DNA of 64,000 bases from SAR86 cluster bacterium (GTDB lineage: Bacteria; Pseudomonadota; Gammaproteobacteria; Magnimaribacterales; AG-339-G14). Position numbers and translations under genes: made by a program. The stretch's first letter is position 1. The number at the start of each line of letters is the position of its first letter. The stretch is taken from positions 19,433 to 83,432 of the forward strand of contig JAOIOC010000005.1 in assembly GCA_028140145.1 (NCBI GenBank), written 5' to 3'. The notes beneath the pieces are model-generated. The model was given only the letters and a program-made list of their open reading frames with translations, was not told the DNA's origin and did not search any database. This document shows positions 34,600 through 41,595 of this stretch, piece after piece.

Positions 34600-35640
<1,041 letters not shown>

Positions 35641-35653
35641 TACCATCGATAGG

Positions 35654-37168
35654 GTGTCAAATAAGATACTCGCCCTTATTCTAGGAATTTCTTTATTTTC
35701 CGTTTATCTTTTTTCTATTAACCTTTATCCATTAGTTGATGAAGACGAAGGTGCATTCGCTTCAGCAACTATGACTATGATGGATTCTGGTAATTATACA
35801 AACGTTGAGTTAGCAGGAGAGAGGAGGGATGACAAACCGGTTCTTACCCATTGGCTGCAGGTCATAAGTTTAAAAACCTTTGGCTTTTCAGAATTTGCTT
35901 TTAGATTACCGAGCGTAATCTTTGGGTTGCTCTGGGCATTCGTAACGTTTTGGTTTACAAAAAAGATTTCAAATAAAAGAAATGCTTTTTTAGCTGCTTT
36001 TTTCGTTCTAGCAAGCCTTGGGGCATCAATTATTATCAAAACAGCAACTGCGGATGGAATATTTAACTTTTTTGTGGCTTCAACAACCCTTTTGGCATTT
36101 TTAGCTTTAAGAGAACAACGGAGCAAGTATTTATACTATGCAGCAATTCTTGCCGGCTTTGGCTTTTTAACAAAAGGACCCGCTATTTTAATCGTGCCAG
36201 GAGGGGCTTTATTTTTCTGGGCTTGGTGGAATGGATATTTAACTGAAACGTTAAGAAAACTTTTCAATCCTTTTTTATGGCTAATCTTTTTTTGTATTGC
36301 ATCACCATGGTTTATCTATTTATATTTAAGCGAAGGCATAGATCCGATACTAGGATTCTTTTTAAAACATAACTTTCAAAGGTATACATCAACTTTTGAG
36401 GGCCACTCAGGACCATTTTATTATTATTTTGTTATTTTGATTTTTTTGGTGGCTCCATTTTGGAATAGTCTTTTTACGGTAGTCGGCAGAATTAAGACAG
36501 ACTTCAAAGATGAAACTAGAAGTTTTCTATGGATTTGGTTTTTATGGGTTTTACTCTTTTTTTCAATATCTTCAACTAAGTTACCGCACTACTTACTCTA
36601 TGGAATAACTCCACTATTCATATTAATGGCACTCAATTTTAAGCAGCAAAGCAAAAGAATAAATCTGCTAATTTTTATTTCTTTATTGGGCTTTATATCA
36701 TCTTTGCCAATTGTATTAGAAACTCTTGCTTCATCAGAGAAAGACATTATTTGGAATGTTTTGAGAGAGGAAATAGAGGTTTTCTTTACTCCTGCAAATT
36801 TCTTTATTCCAATATTAATTCTTCTAGCCCTTGGAATTGTCTCCTTTATGGTCTTTTCTAAATTTAACCAATTTATAATCTCGTCTTTATTATTTTTGAT
36901 TAGTATCCATTTAATTTTCCTTCCAAGTGCCATAGGACTATTCCAAGATCGATTCAAACAGGCTGGATTAAAGGTAAAAGAAATGAATAAGCCATTAGCC
37001 ATGCACAAGATGAACTTTCCCTCTTTTGGAGTATATGCAAGAGACACTGCCTATAGAAATCATAAGGATGGACAAATAATTCTTTTAAGGAGCAATCAAA
37101 TTGATGAGCTAGGTTCAGTGATAGAAATTTATAATAGGTCGGGTATTTCTGTGGTGATAAAAGAGTGA
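35654..37168 (+). CDS. GT39/ArnT-like membrane glycosyltransferase
   Basis: I prefer the GTG at 35654 (MSNKILALILGISLF, 504 residues) because the track's TTG at 35621 overlaps ilvC. The protein is a multipass glycosyltransferase of the PMT/ArnT (GT39) type, which moves a sugar from an undecaprenyl-phosphate carrier to an acceptor on the periplasmic side. Key signs are the first-loop acidic motif PLVDEDEGAFASATMTM, then RRDDKPVLTHWLQ and FRLPSVIFGLLWA. About a dozen hydrophobic helices and a small C-terminal periplasmic domain follow. The acceptor (lipid A, another lipid or protein) is not known. Its end overlaps the PAP2 fusion by four bases. Confidence 0.83.
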   Translation: MSNKILALILGISLFSVYLFSINLYPLVDEDEGAFASATMTMMDSGNYTNVELAGERRDDKPVLTHWLQVISLKTFGFSEFAFRLPSVIFGLLWAFVTFWFTKKISNKRNAFLAAFFVLASLGASIIIKTATADGIFNFFVASTTLLAFLALREQRSKYLYYAAILAGFGFLTKGPAILIVPGGALFFWAWWNGYLTETLRKLFNPFLWLIFFCIASPWFIYLYLSEGIDPILGFFLKHNFQRYTSTFEGHSGPFYYYFVILIFLVAPFWNSLFTVVGRIKTDFKDETRSFLWIWFLWVLLFFSISSTKLPHYLLYGITPLFILMALNFKQQSKRINLLIFISLLGFISSLPIVLETLASSEKDIIWNVLREEIEVFFTPANFFIPILILLALGIVSFMVFSKFNQFIISSLLFLISIHLIFLPSAIGLFQDRFKQAGLKVKEMNKPLAMHKMNFPSFGVYARDTAYRNHKDGQIILLRSNQIDELGSVIEIYNRSGISVVIKE

Positions 37169-38805
37169 ATCTTCAGCACAAAACAGGTTTTATTATCTTT
37201 GCTTTGGCGCTCGTTCTGATTGGTTTGAATTATTTAGATTCTGTAATTGTTCTAAATAACTTTATTTTTATTGGACTAAATAGTTTGGGAGCTTTTATAG
37301 ATCAATCAGCTCTCACTTTTCTTACCGAATTTGGTAACGCAGCCATACTGATGATTGCATCTGTAATCCCAATATATTACTCAAGAAAATTTTTCAGGCT
37401 AATCATCTCATCTACACTGATTGGAATCTTGCTCTCGAGAGGGTTAAAAATTTTACTGGATATTCCAAGGCCAGGAGCAATCCTGCCAAGAGAAGAATTT
37501 TTTGTTGTTGAGCCTCTTTTGTCCTCTCAATCCGTGCCTTCTGGACACGCATTTAGTCTCTTTTTATTTTTCTCTTGTTTGGTTGTCTCAGGCATGATTA
37601 AAAAAAACTATTTTGTACTGTTAATTTTCGCCTTTTCACTTATTGCTTTTACAAGGATATTAGTTGGGGCTCACTGGCCAATGGATATTCTGATTGGGGC
37701 TTCTTTGGGTTTTAGCTTGCCTTTACTCTTGGCTTCATTGTCAGAGAGATCGTCAAAAATTTTGGACACTTTATATTCGGTATTTTTCATTATTCTATTA
37801 AGCATCGCACTTTACACAATTCTCATTGGCAATTTTTCTACCTATGATTTTGCAAATGAAATCGGCTGGTTATACATTCTTATTTTCTTGAGTTTCCTTT
37901 TATTTCTTAATTTACTGAAGATAGAAAACATTTTTAGTATTGCTTTAGACTATTTCACCAAAATAAAGGTATCTCAGAGTAATTTTTTTAAAATCTTTAT
38001 GCCTTTGCTTATTTCTTCCACATTCATATATTTAATCTATAAATATGGATCTTTTAGTTCCTTTCTCTTCATGACAGGAAATTTGGATTTTCTCCTATTG
38101 TCCGTTGCATTAGGTCTTTTAGTTTTAAGCCTATTGATAAGGGCTGCTCGAATAAGAAGATTTTTTAAAAAGGAAACAAAGAGCCTAGGAGTTATGCGAA
38201 TCACTTTCTTGCATAACTTTTTAAATAATTTCTTACCTATGCGAATTGGAGAATTTTCTTTTCCTTTGCTTTTGAGAGAATCTTATGGGATCGATAATAA
38301 GATATCCCTCAGGGCACTTTTTATTTTCAGGCTCACAGATCTTTTATCAATCATTTTTTTGTCTTTATTTGTCTTTCTTAGTTTCTACTATTCTTTAATG
38401 CTTAACATCTTATTTTTTGTTGCTTGGTACTTAGGAGTGAGCTATTTATTGCAAGAAAGAGATATTAAAAAAAATCTTTTTGAAAAAATTGAAATTTTGA
38501 TTTTGTCTTTGTTAGCTTGGTTCATAAAAGTATTTGCACTCACCTATCTTCTGTTATCTTTGATTTCAGTAAGCTTAGAAAGTTCTTTCGTAGCAGTTAT
38601 TTTTGGTGAATTAACATCAATCCTACCCATCCATGGCTTTGCAGGAACGGGGACATATGAGGGAGGCATAATATTTGGGCTTAATTCTTTTGATAAAAAC
38701 ATTAATATCGATTCAATGATCAGTGCTTCTTTATTGGTCCACTTTACTGTTCTTTTATATAGTCTTATCCTTGCAATTGTTTCAACATTCATTAAGAAAA
38801 CATGA
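37165..38805 (+). CDS. PAP2 phosphatase fused to UPF0104/LPG-synthase-TM-like domain
   Basis: This 546-residue membrane protein joins two modules. Residues about 1-200 form a PAP2 lipid phosphatase with all three motif parts: KILLDIPRPGA, VPSGHAFSLF and TRILVGAHWPMD. Residues about 290-546 form a multipass domain of the UPF0104/lysylphosphatidylglycerol-synthase transmembrane type, marked by RAARIRRFFKKETKSLGVMRITFLHNFLNNFLPMRIGEFSFPLLLRESYG and the terminal LPIHGFAGTGTYEGGII. The GTG start overlaps the preceding stop as GTGA. PAP2 proteins remove phosphate from isoprenoid or lipid A phosphates. The second domain may move a lipid across the membrane; that function is inference. Confidence 0.83.
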   Translation: MNLQHKTGFIIFALALVLIGLNYLDSVIVLNNFIFIGLNSLGAFIDQSALTFLTEFGNAAILMIASVIPIYYSRKFFRLIISSTLIGILLSRGLKILLDIPRPGAILPREEFFVVEPLLSSQSVPSGHAFSLFLFFSCLVVSGMIKKNYFVLLIFAFSLIAFTRILVGAHWPMDILIGASLGFSLPLLLASLSERSSKILDTLYSVFFIILLSIALYTILIGNFSTYDFANEIGWLYILIFLSFLLFLNLLKIENIFSIALDYFTKIKVSQSNFFKIFMPLLISSTFIYLIYKYGSFSSFLFMTGNLDFLLLSVALGLLVLSLLIRAARIRRFFKKETKSLGVMRITFLHNFLNNFLPMRIGEFSFPLLLRESYGIDNKISLRALFIFRLTDLLSIIFLSLFVFLSFYYSLMLNILFFVAWYLGVSYLLQERDIKKNLFEKIEILILSLLAWFIKVFALTYLLLSLISVSLESSFVAVIFGELTSILPIHGFAGTGTYEGGIIFGLNSFDKNINIDSMISASLLVHFTVLLYSLILAIVSTFIKKT

Positions 38806-39752
38806 AAACTTATTTAAGCATTGTCGTTCCTGTTTATAACGAGGAAGAAAATATAAAACCTCTCGTCGATGAGATTTATCAATCGATGGAATCCCTAGAT
38901 AAAGAATGGGAATTACTCATTATTGATGATTCAAGCAAAGATAATACGGGAGATATATGTGAATCAATTGCCAAAGTAAAAAAAGAAGTCAGGTACCTAC
39001 TATTAGGAAGGAATTCAGGTCAAACGGCTGCCATGCAAGCAGGTTTTGACCACGTACAGGGAAAATACATAGCAACTTTGGACGGCGACCTTCAAAACGA
39101 TCCGAAGGATATTTTAAGACTCTTGAATAGGCTGAAAGAAGAAAAGTTGGATTTAATTGTTGGATGGAGAAAAGACAGAAAAGATCCCTTTCTTAGAAGC
39201 CTCATATCAAAGATGGCAAATTCTTTAATTGGTTGGTCGACTGATATAAAGCTCCATGATTACGGATGTAGCTTAAAGGTCTATAGAAATAAAACTCTCA
39301 AAGCTGTTCAGTTGTACGGCGAAATGCATCGGTTAATTCCTGCATGGATGAGTCTTTATACTGATAAGGCAAGGATAAGAGAAGAGGAAGTAAATCATAG
39401 ACCCAGAATTGCTGGCGAGAGCAAGTATGGGTTTGGAAGAATTGCTAGGGTACCTTTAGATTTATTTTCAATTATATTTTTCCAAAGGTTTTTATCTAAA
39501 CCAGCGCACTTTTTTGGTTTTCCTGGTTTAGTTTTTTTGGTTCTAGGAATAATTATCTTATCTATATTAAGCGCCCAAAAAATTATGCTTGGCATAGACT
39601 TAGGCGACAGACCACTTTTTTACGGGGGAATACTTTCTGTTGTGTTTGGAACCCAACTTTTAACGACCGGTTTATTGGCTGAAGTGGTCGTAAGAATTTA
39701 CTTTTCGAATAAAAACCGTCCTTATGTCATAAGAAAGGATTCTGATAATTAA
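38802..39752 (+). CDS. GT2 polyprenyl-phosphate glycosyltransferase (ArnC/GtrB/DPM1-like)
   Basis: This 316-residue protein should load a nucleotide sugar onto undecaprenyl phosphate at the cytoplasmic face. The GT-A domain has VVPVYNEEENIKPLV, the DDSSKDNT nucleotide motif, GRNSGQTAAMQAGFDH and the catalytic DGDLQNDPKDI. Two C-terminal membrane helices (FPGLVFLVLGIIILSIL; PLFYGGILSVVFGTQLLTTGLLAE) are as in GtrB/ArnC. The ATGA overlap with the PAP2 fusion and the upstream GT39 gene support one pathway: load, flip, transfer. The sugar cannot be read from sequence. Confidence 0.87.
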   Translation: MKTYLSIVVPVYNEEENIKPLVDEIYQSMESLDKEWELLIIDDSSKDNTGDICESIAKVKKEVRYLLLGRNSGQTAAMQAGFDHVQGKYIATLDGDLQNDPKDILRLLNRLKEEKLDLIVGWRKDRKDPFLRSLISKMANSLIGWSTDIKLHDYGCSLKVYRNKTLKAVQLYGEMHRLIPAWMSLYTDKARIREEEVNHRPRIAGESKYGFGRIARVPLDLFSIIFFQRFLSKPAHFFGFPGLVFLVLGIIILSILSAQKIMLGIDLGDRPLFYGGILSVVFGTQLLTTGLLAEVVVRIYFSNKNRPYVIRKDSDN

Positions 39753-39804: not shown

Positions 39805-39881
<77 letters not shown>

Positions 39882-39948: not shown

Positions 39949-41595
39949 ATGCTTAGGAAAACTTTAGTTACTTTTGCTCTTCTCGCCATACTAGGCATCA
40001 CAGCCTGGGAATTTAAAATAAATATACTTATTTGGTCTATACCGAAACTGTCGGCTATTTTTATGCCAATACAAGATAATATTCCAACCACTTGGACAGA
40101 GGGACCTGAAATTCCTACACAAGATGACCGTCCTAATATTATTTTAATTTTGGCTGATGATTTGGGATACAACGATATCTCTGCTCATAACGGCGGAGCA
40201 GCAGACGGATCTTTGATAACACCCCACATAGATTCGCTAGCAGAAAACGGCATTCTCTTTTCAAGAGGATATGCTGCCAATGCTACTTGTGCACCTTCAA
40301 GGGCATCCATCATGACAGGGAAATACCCCACAAAATTTGGATATGAATTTACTCCCGTACCGGCAACCGGAAGATTAATTATGCGCTGGCTTGCTGAAGA
40401 GGATGACTCAGAACTGAGAGCCAGAGTTGATAGAGAAGTAGCGACTCGGTTACCTCCTTTATGGGAGCAAGGAATGCCAACTGAGCAAGTAACAATTGCA
40501 GAGGTTCTTCGTGATGCAGGATATTACACAGCCCACATAGGAAAATGGCATCTTGGCCAAGCCAATGGCATGGATGCGCAAAGCCAAGGATTTAAAGATT
40601 CTTTATCTTTGGTGGGACCTTTGTATGCCCCAGAAGATGATCCAGATATAGTAAATGCAAAGTTCGATACTGGAATCGACAGAATGATTTGGGGTATTGG
40701 GCAGTATTCAGCAATGTTTAATGGAGGCGATTTTTTTGCTCCAGATAAATATGTTACCGATTACTATACTGAAGAAGCTTTGAAGGTTATTGAAAAAAAT
40801 AAAAACAGACCTTTCTTTTTATATTTAAGTCATTGGGCAGTTCATAATCCTCTGCAGGCATTGAGAAGCGATGTAGAGCATATGAGCCATATGCAAGGTC
40901 ATAATTTACAAGTTTATTCTGGAATGATTGCCGCGCTTGATCGAAGCGTAGGAAGAGTAATTCAGAAACTCAAAGAGCTCGAAATATATGGCAAAACTTT
41001 GATTATTTTTACTAGCGATAACGGTGGAGCTGATTATATTGAGTTAGAGGATATTAATAAGCCTTACAGAGGTTGGAAAATAAGCTTCTTTGAAGGTGGA
41101 ATAAGAGTTCCTTATATTGTCAGCTGGCCTGATGGAATAAGTCCTGCACAAGAATCAAATAGCGCGGTGCATCACTTTGATATTTTTTCTACAATTGCAT
41201 CTGCTGCGGGCATTGAATCTTCAGAATTAAATGATTTAGATGGTGTTAATCTTCTACCTTTTATAAATAAAGAAATATCCACTGAACCGCACGAAACGCT
41301 TTTTTGGCGTTCAGGTAATCATCAATCGGTCTTACATAAAAACTGGAAATATATAACTAGCAAAAAAGAAAATTTTCGGTGGCTCTTCAATACCGCAGAA
41401 GATCCCACAGAAAAGAATAATCTAATCGAAGTTTATCCTGAAAAAGCACAATTTCTCGAGCAGCTATTAGATAAATTTAATTCAGAGCAAGCTGACCCTG
41501 TTGTACCATCTGCATTTGAAGTTCCAATATTAATTGATAAATATGATGGACAGGAGTACGAAGAGGGAGATGATTATATTTATTGGTCTAACTAA
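39949..41595 (+). CDS. Arylsulfatase-type sulfatase
   Basis: The 548-residue enzyme should hydrolyse sulfate esters. An N-terminal hydrophobic segment (LVTFALLAILGITAWEF) exports or anchors it outside the cytoplasm. Metal-binding DDLGYNDISAHNGG is followed by the formylglycine signature CAPSRASIMTGKYP, with cysteine as the residue to be oxidised, then HIGKWHLG, LSHWAVHNPLQ and TSDNGGADY. The Cys-type site requires a formylglycine-generating or anSME activase, not found in this window. Substrate (sulfated algal polysaccharide, lipid or small ester) is unknown. It has its own promoter between two tRNAs, suggesting an accessory gene. Confidence 0.92.
   Translation: MLRKTLVTFALLAILGITAWEFKINILIWSIPKLSAIFMPIQDNIPTTWTEGPEIPTQDDRPNIILILADDLGYNDISAHNGGAADGSLITPHIDSLAENGILFSRGYAANATCAPSRASIMTGKYPTKFGYEFTPVPATGRLIMRWLAEEDDSELRARVDREVATRLPPLWEQGMPTEQVTIAEVLRDAGYYTAHIGKWHLGQANGMDAQSQGFKDSLSLVGPLYAPEDDPDIVNAKFDTGIDRMIWGIGQYSAMFNGGDFFAPDKYVTDYYTEEALKVIEKNKNRPFFLYLSHWAVHNPLQALRSDVEHMSHMQGHNLQVYSGMIAALDRSVGRVIQKLKELEIYGKTLIIFTSDNGGADYIELEDINKPYRGWKISFFEGGIRVPYIVSWPDGISPAQESNSAVHHFDIFSTIASAAGIESSELNDLDGVNLLPFINKEISTEPHETLFWRSGNHQSVLHKNWKYITSKKENFRWLFNTAEDPTEKNNLIEVYPEKAQFLEQLLDKFNSEQADPVVPSAFEVPILIDKYDGQEYEEGDDYIYWSN

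Follow-up and report, generated by a model that had tools for sequence, protein, structure and literature searches.

A cassette of three genes in a SAR86 cluster bacterium encodes a GT39 transferase, a single protein that joins a PAP2 phosphatase to a UPF0104 membrane domain, and a GT2 sugar synthase. The cassette is real, conserved and coherent, and judging from sequence comparisons it appears to work much as three-component systems for extracytoplasmic glycosylation do, while adding an LpxE-like phosphatase. By homology and by analogy with known systems, it may be a compact glycosylation module that in net effect puts a sugar where lipid A had a phosphate, a reading that we favor tentatively and hold at a little under even confidence. 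Each part is a member of a known family. The fusion and the four-part set are undescribed in the literature searched, where we found neither a PAP2+UPF0104 fusion nor a class-wide set of the four parts, nor any biochemical work on a member of the set; a search for work on SAR86 lipid A returned nothing of use.

The window, meaning the whole stretch of 64,000 nucleotides that was analyzed, carries the cassette on the forward strand, as it does all features given here, between ilvC (34609-35640) and a tRNA-Ile(GAT) gene (39805-39881) that marks the downstream boundary. The first gene encodes a GT39, ArnT-like GT-C transferase of 504 residues (35654-37168; PMT_2, 2e-19) from a GTG start, 13 bases beyond the stop codon of ilvC; an in-frame TTG at 35621 is a possible alternative start, which would make the gene overlap ilvC. 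Co-transcription with ilvC is plausible because of this short distance. The four bases GTGA (37165-37168) hold both the stop of the GT39 gene and the GTG start of the fusion gene, which encodes 546 residues with two Pfam domains (37165-38805). Likewise, ATGA (38802-38805) joins the stop of the fusion gene to the ATG start of the third gene, encoding a GT2, ArnC/GtrB-like polyprenyl-phosphate sugar synthase of 316 residues (38802-39752; Glycos_transf_2, 8e-33). The initial annotation was right in describing three genes with four-base overlaps, including their coordinates; its gene order is corrected here to GT39, fusion, GT2. A scan of the cassette for promoters and terminators gave scores no better than those of shuffled sequences, and its base composition differs only in being slightly AT-richer. 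No sugar-nucleotide gene is linked to it. Past the tRNA gene lies a sulfatase gene (39949-41595) that varies within the genus: it is present in five of the eight loci checked, shifted by roughly 1.5 kb at L014, and was not found in three others (L017-L019).

The cassette occurs in all nine sampled genomes of its genus and in none of 31 genomes from the family's other three genera; the relatives that carry it are titled uncultured SAR86 cluster bacterium. In the eight other loci the synteny from ilvC to GT2 is identical, with ilvC as the same upstream neighbor, and the proteins are 88-98% identical. Because these loci share all three genes and both overlaps, the genes are not products of chance; conservation in all nine copies and low dN/dS, 0.04-0.25 for each gene and thus a sign of purifying selection, rule out chance open reading frames. 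A complete genome from a sister genus has no homolog of any of the four domains, and in the sister genus the slot between ilvC and tRNA-Ile is occupied by one gene of about 300 codons that, read by eye, resembles homocysteine S-methyltransferase. The layout behind ilvC is thus specific to one SAR86 genus and no general arrangement of marine Gammaproteobacteria.

Both glycosyltransferases resemble components of the Arn system over most of their length, as had been proposed. The GT2 matches ArnC (9hwj) at 2e-46 over nearly its full length, and GtrB (5eke) at 1e-29 over residues 5-311, a span that includes the GtrB-like C-terminal membrane part. For the GT39, the sole match among solved structures in the PDB is ArnT (5ezm, 1e-16), in which the DE and DKP motifs align; no protein mannosyltransferase structure was matched. 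The family motifs DEGAF, DKP and KLPHY are common to its relatives, and DE and DKP occur in the gammaproteobacterial relatives. Membership in the Arn equivalog families themselves is ruled out by scores far under the cut-offs (178.1 vs 529 bits for ArnC, 127.6 vs 567 bits for ArnT). The two proteins thus appear to be ArnC/GtrB-like and ArnT-like, and an assignment to unrelated subfamilies, which would have refuted the initial annotation, was not seen.

The N-terminal half of the fusion contains a PAP2 domain (37402-37740; PF01569, residues 80-192, 3e-14, above the curated cut-off) with three motifs that are invariant in 18 aligned sequences: K-x6-R-P (K95 to P103, 37447-37473), PSGH (residues 125-128, 37537-37548) and R-x5-H-x3-D (R164 to D174, 37654-37686). 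These match the tripartite motif of LpxE-type enzymes, KX6RP / PSGH / SRX5HX3D, including H170, with T in place of S before R164. All catalytic residues are invariant across the nine cassette copies. Among solved PAP2 enzymes, LpxE (6ebu) is the best profile match at 2e-27, against 9e-12 for PgpB, and it also ranks first by fold (TM 0.77 of target), with a Bacillus subtilis PGP phosphatase a close second. Sequence and predicted fold therefore suggest an LpxE-type phosphatase, with LpxE as the closest match among PAP2 enzymes of known structure. LpxE-type enzymes also hydrolyze Und-PP and PGP (PMC6581854), so the likeness leaves the substrate unfixed.

The C-terminal half contains an LPG_synthase_TM / UPF0104 flippase-like domain (38002-38766; PF03706, residues 280-534, 2e-11), scoring 44.6 bits against a curated cut-off of 33.4. 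Two signatures stand out in an alignment of 11 sequences: NNFLPMRIGE (38224-38253), in which the columns N, LP, R and GE are invariant or nearly so, and GELTSILPIHGFAGTGTYEGG (38605-38667), in which G, LP, G, YE and G are invariant. The predicted structure of the whole fusion has a mean pLDDT of 76.6 and a pTM of 0.50, with a low-confidence, poorly modeled linker at residues 222-278. When it was used in a fold search, the N-terminal half resembled LpxE and the C-terminal half MprF of Pseudomonas aeruginosa; the MprF structures 9j8s and 9goe were matched with probability 1.00 but weak E-values of 0.05-0.12, covering one domain. In P. aeruginosa, MprF acts as a scramblase for many different lipids and does so with no energy source (PMC11980842).

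A similar module, GT39 - PAP2a - PAP2b - GT2, occurs in 11 of 11 loci of another family within the SAR86 order (the second family); the gene order is the same, and a second PAP2 gene (PAP2b) takes the place of the UPF0104 part. In trees, PAP2a clusters with the PAP2 domain of the SAR86 fusion (support 99/99) and the GT2 proteins group together (94/91); for GT39 the support is only 70/29. The modules of the two families may go back to one inheritance. UPF0104 is present in none of the 11 genomes of this family, and GtrA in all six searched. In the genus of the window, GtrA was found in two of the four genomes searched, away from the cassette, and was lacking in two genomes that are 94% complete. 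The pattern, in small numbers, is what would be expected if one type of flippase had taken over from another. In one second-family locus (L069:5666-11835) a gene that by eye looks rhodopsin-like precedes the module, whose GT2 gene has a four-base overlap with a gpsA-like gene, likewise named by eye. Elsewhere in the window's own genome, a surface-glycan region contains another cluster, of the classical GT2-GtrA-GT-C type (L100, G000:C1:96000-106000).

LpxK is encoded in 20 of the 22 genomes searched and in all 15 near-complete ones, so lipid A is available as an acceptor. In the window's own genome LpxK is part of a 923-residue MsbA-LpxK fusion with ABC_membrane, ABC_tran and LpxK domains (L099:2682-5453, G000:C48). 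Nearly all SAR86 genomes matched have LpxK within frames of 913-942 residues, with a frame of 950 residues in G307.

The same four parts recur in other Gammaproteobacteria. A sample of 369 genomes was searched with thresholds of E<=1e-60 for GT2 and E<=1e-40 for GT39, giving matches in 52 genomes for GT2, 32 for GT39 and 50 for the domains of the fusion, which are mostly separate PAP2 and UPF0104 genes. Among the 368 genomes other than the window's own, each pair of the four parts occurs together in 22-28 genomes vs 2.8-5.4 expected, and PAP2 with UPF0104 in 23 vs 3.5 expected, a statistic inflated by kinship among genomes. Eighteen of these genomes have all four parts, in some cases with the genes spread over three or four contigs. 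When neighbors are counted up to a distance of 8 kb, 23 of 33 genomes have UPF0104 next to GT2 and 16 of 31 have PAP2 next to GT39; the other pairs reach 11-12. This can be read as a pairing of flippase with loader and of phosphatase with transferase. Compact clusters of four separate genes occur at six loci (L049, L050, L051, L055, L059 and L075). Beyond the class, UPF0104 adjoins a GT2-GT39 pair on pSymB of Sinorhizobium meliloti and on a plasmid of the haloarchaeon Halomontanus rarus, and a UPF0104-GT2 pair occurs on a plasmid of Azospirillum lipoferum.

Fusion of PAP2 to UPF0104 is not unique to SAR86, since a second such fusion was found in G374 (596 residues, L061:6446-8236) and G278 (601 residues, L086:6941-8746). 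In G374 it sits between a GT39 gene and a GT9 (heptosyltransferase-family) gene, and G351 (L062) has the same set unfused. The UPF0104 part of these proteins belongs to a different subfamily from that of the SAR86 fusion. A common origin of both fusions is rejected by the UPF0104 tree, which excludes a joint clade with p 2e-6, a value to be taken with caution given the long branches. G123 has PAP2 fused to GT39; at L075:9786-11909 a PAP2-GT39 fusion of 707 residues lies next to another GT39, a GT2 and a UPF0104 gene. The parts have thus been joined in more than one way. Every PAP2+UPF0104 fusion found, the independent second one included, is linked to glycosyltransferase genes, as opposed to being a scattered architecture.

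If the cassette is such a module, GT2 would load a sugar from its nucleotide onto undecaprenyl phosphate, as its full-length homology to ArnC and GtrB suggests. The loaded carrier would reach the periplasmic leaflet through the UPF0104 half, probably an MprF-like scramblase that works without energy input and could also let spent Und-P return. The LpxE-like PAP2 half would dephosphorylate the acceptor, most likely at a phosphate of lipid A, and the ArnT-like GT39 would then put the sugar on the exposed position. The net result would be a sugar in place of a lipid A phosphate, much as for rhizobial LpxE/RgtE/RgtF, except that here the phosphatase carries a dedicated flippase within the same protein. 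Throughout, we infer the sugar, the acceptor and the direction of flipping. The load-flip-transfer unit proposed in the initial annotation gains support from the resemblance of GT2 to ArnC/GtrB, of GT39 to ArnT and, as a weaker fold match, of UPF0104 to MprF, and from co-occurrence across the class. Of the two roles it offered for the phosphatase, freeing a lipid A phosphate site appears the better fit, since the PAP2 domain is nearest LpxE, LpxK is present, and PAP2 mostly lies beside the transferase and not the loader.

The same load-flip-transfer sequence could instead serve another acceptor, such as a phospholipid, a surface glycan or a protein, with PAP2 dephosphorylating that acceptor or a phospholipid precursor. 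Archaea are without lipid A, and PMT-family enzymes glycosylate proteins and glycans as well. Because the UPF0104-GT2-GT39 triad also occurs in an archaeon, which offers it no lipid A to modify, lipid A need not be the acceptor in every organism; the range of PMT-family targets and the overlap of the second-family module with a gpsA-like gene, hence with phospholipid precursor synthesis, point the same way. The UPF0104 partners in the gpgSDF and hexSDF operons act on phospholipids or glycolipids (PMC12713373). Against this, the solved structure that GT39 matches is ArnT and not a protein mannosyltransferase, the PAP2 domain most resembles LpxE, and lipid A is present in these bacteria; for the SAR86 cassette we consider a different acceptor unlikely, if credible.

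Alternatively, the fusion might act on the carrier and not on the acceptor, as an Und-PP phosphatase and scramblase that makes periplasmic Und-P and returns it to the cytoplasmic leaflet for GT2. LpxE enzymes show Und-PP phosphatase activity (PMC6581854), the best NCBIfam model for the fusion, although below threshold, is an undecaprenyl-diphosphatase, MprF-type scramblases are bidirectional and promiscuous, and joining a phosphatase to a scramblase would be sensible if the two shared one lipid. A GT-C enzyme that uses an Und-P-sugar donor, however, leaves Und-P and not Und-PP. The module itself therefore makes no Und-PP, and a recycling phosphatase is unnecessary, which leaves the recycling of undecaprenyl phosphate unsupported as a needed step. 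In addition, PAP2 pairs more with GT39 than with UPF0104 or GT2 across Gammaproteobacteria, and the second SAR86 family has two PAP2 proteins and no UPF0104. We judge carrier recycling improbable. That the fusion is meaningless, neighboring genes of separate pathways having been joined by streamlining of the small, tightly packed SAR86 genomes (the MsbA-LpxK fusion in the same lineage would be in keeping with this), is very unlikely given the independent second fusion, again beside GT39, in other Gammaproteobacteria and the co-occurrence of PAP2 and UPF0104 genes well above expectation.

A broader form of the lipid A reading is that the four proteins constitute an undescribed, class-wide gammaproteobacterial pathway that replaces lipid A phosphates with sugar and in which UPF0104 would be the donor flippase that had been missing; phosphatase and scramblase would in SAR86 have become one protein that works on donor and acceptor from a single side of the membrane. 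We regard this as doubtful at present. Were it true, surface charge would be changed in one of the ocean's most abundant bacteria. Should the acceptor of the cassette be lipid A, a less negative outer surface would be predicted in a major ocean lineage, with possible effects on phage adsorption, grazing and cationic peptides. Polyprenyl-phosphate sugar flippases are mostly assigned by context, and direct activity has not been shown for the GtrA- and MATE-type candidates (PMC5836110, PMC11127046). UPF0104 is a clear, testable flippase candidate: it lies beside GT2, it occurs in genomes that lack GtrA, as judged from a small number of SAR86 genomes, and it has twice been fused to PAP2.

Several known systems share parts of this design. 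In the Arn system (ArnC, ArnE/F, ArnT) the loader and the transferase correspond to the SAR86 GT2 and GT39 over most of their length; the cassette has UPF0104 where Arn has SMR-type subunits, and no ArnE/F, deformylase or Ara4N genes lie alongside it. GtrA-GtrB-Gtr, which glucosylates O-antigen in Shigella and Salmonella, follows the same logic of loader, flippase and GT-C transferase (PMC11127046), whereas the cassette lacks GtrA, has UPF0104 in its place and adds PAP2. Archaeal neighborhoods described by Makarova in 2015 link the same three kinds of protein, UPF0104, PMT/STT3-like and AglD-like, with UPF0104 proposed as a flippase (PMC5898192); those are dolichol-based with no PAP2 described, and AglD fuses UPF0104 to GT2 where SAR86 fuses it to PAP2. 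The gpgSDF and hexSDF glycolipid operons likewise place a predicted UPF0104 flippase beside a sugar transferase (PMC12713373), but theirs is a GT4 enzyme acting directly on phosphatidylglycerol, with a deacetylase and with neither PAP2 nor GT-C. MprF, whose flippase domain may resemble the UPF0104 half of the SAR86 fusion in fold, joins that domain to an aminoacyl-lipid synthase instead of a phosphatase.

The best precedent for PAP2, GT2 and GT39 acting together is the pathway in which galacturonic acid takes the place of phosphates on lipid A. Compared by kind of protein, rhizobial LpxE/RgtE/RgtF (also LpxF and RgtD) likewise comprise a PAP2 phosphatase, a GT2 polyprenyl-phosphate sugar synthase and a GT39/PMT-like transferase. 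In Oligotropha, rgtE, lpxE and rgtF have the consecutive locus tags c19730, c19740 and c19750, and the lipid A carries two GalA (PMC7663294). The SAR86 cassette similarly encodes PAP2, GT2 and GT39 together in a lipid A maker, and to the rhizobial set it adds a dedicated UPF0104 flippase, fused to the PAP2 phosphatase.
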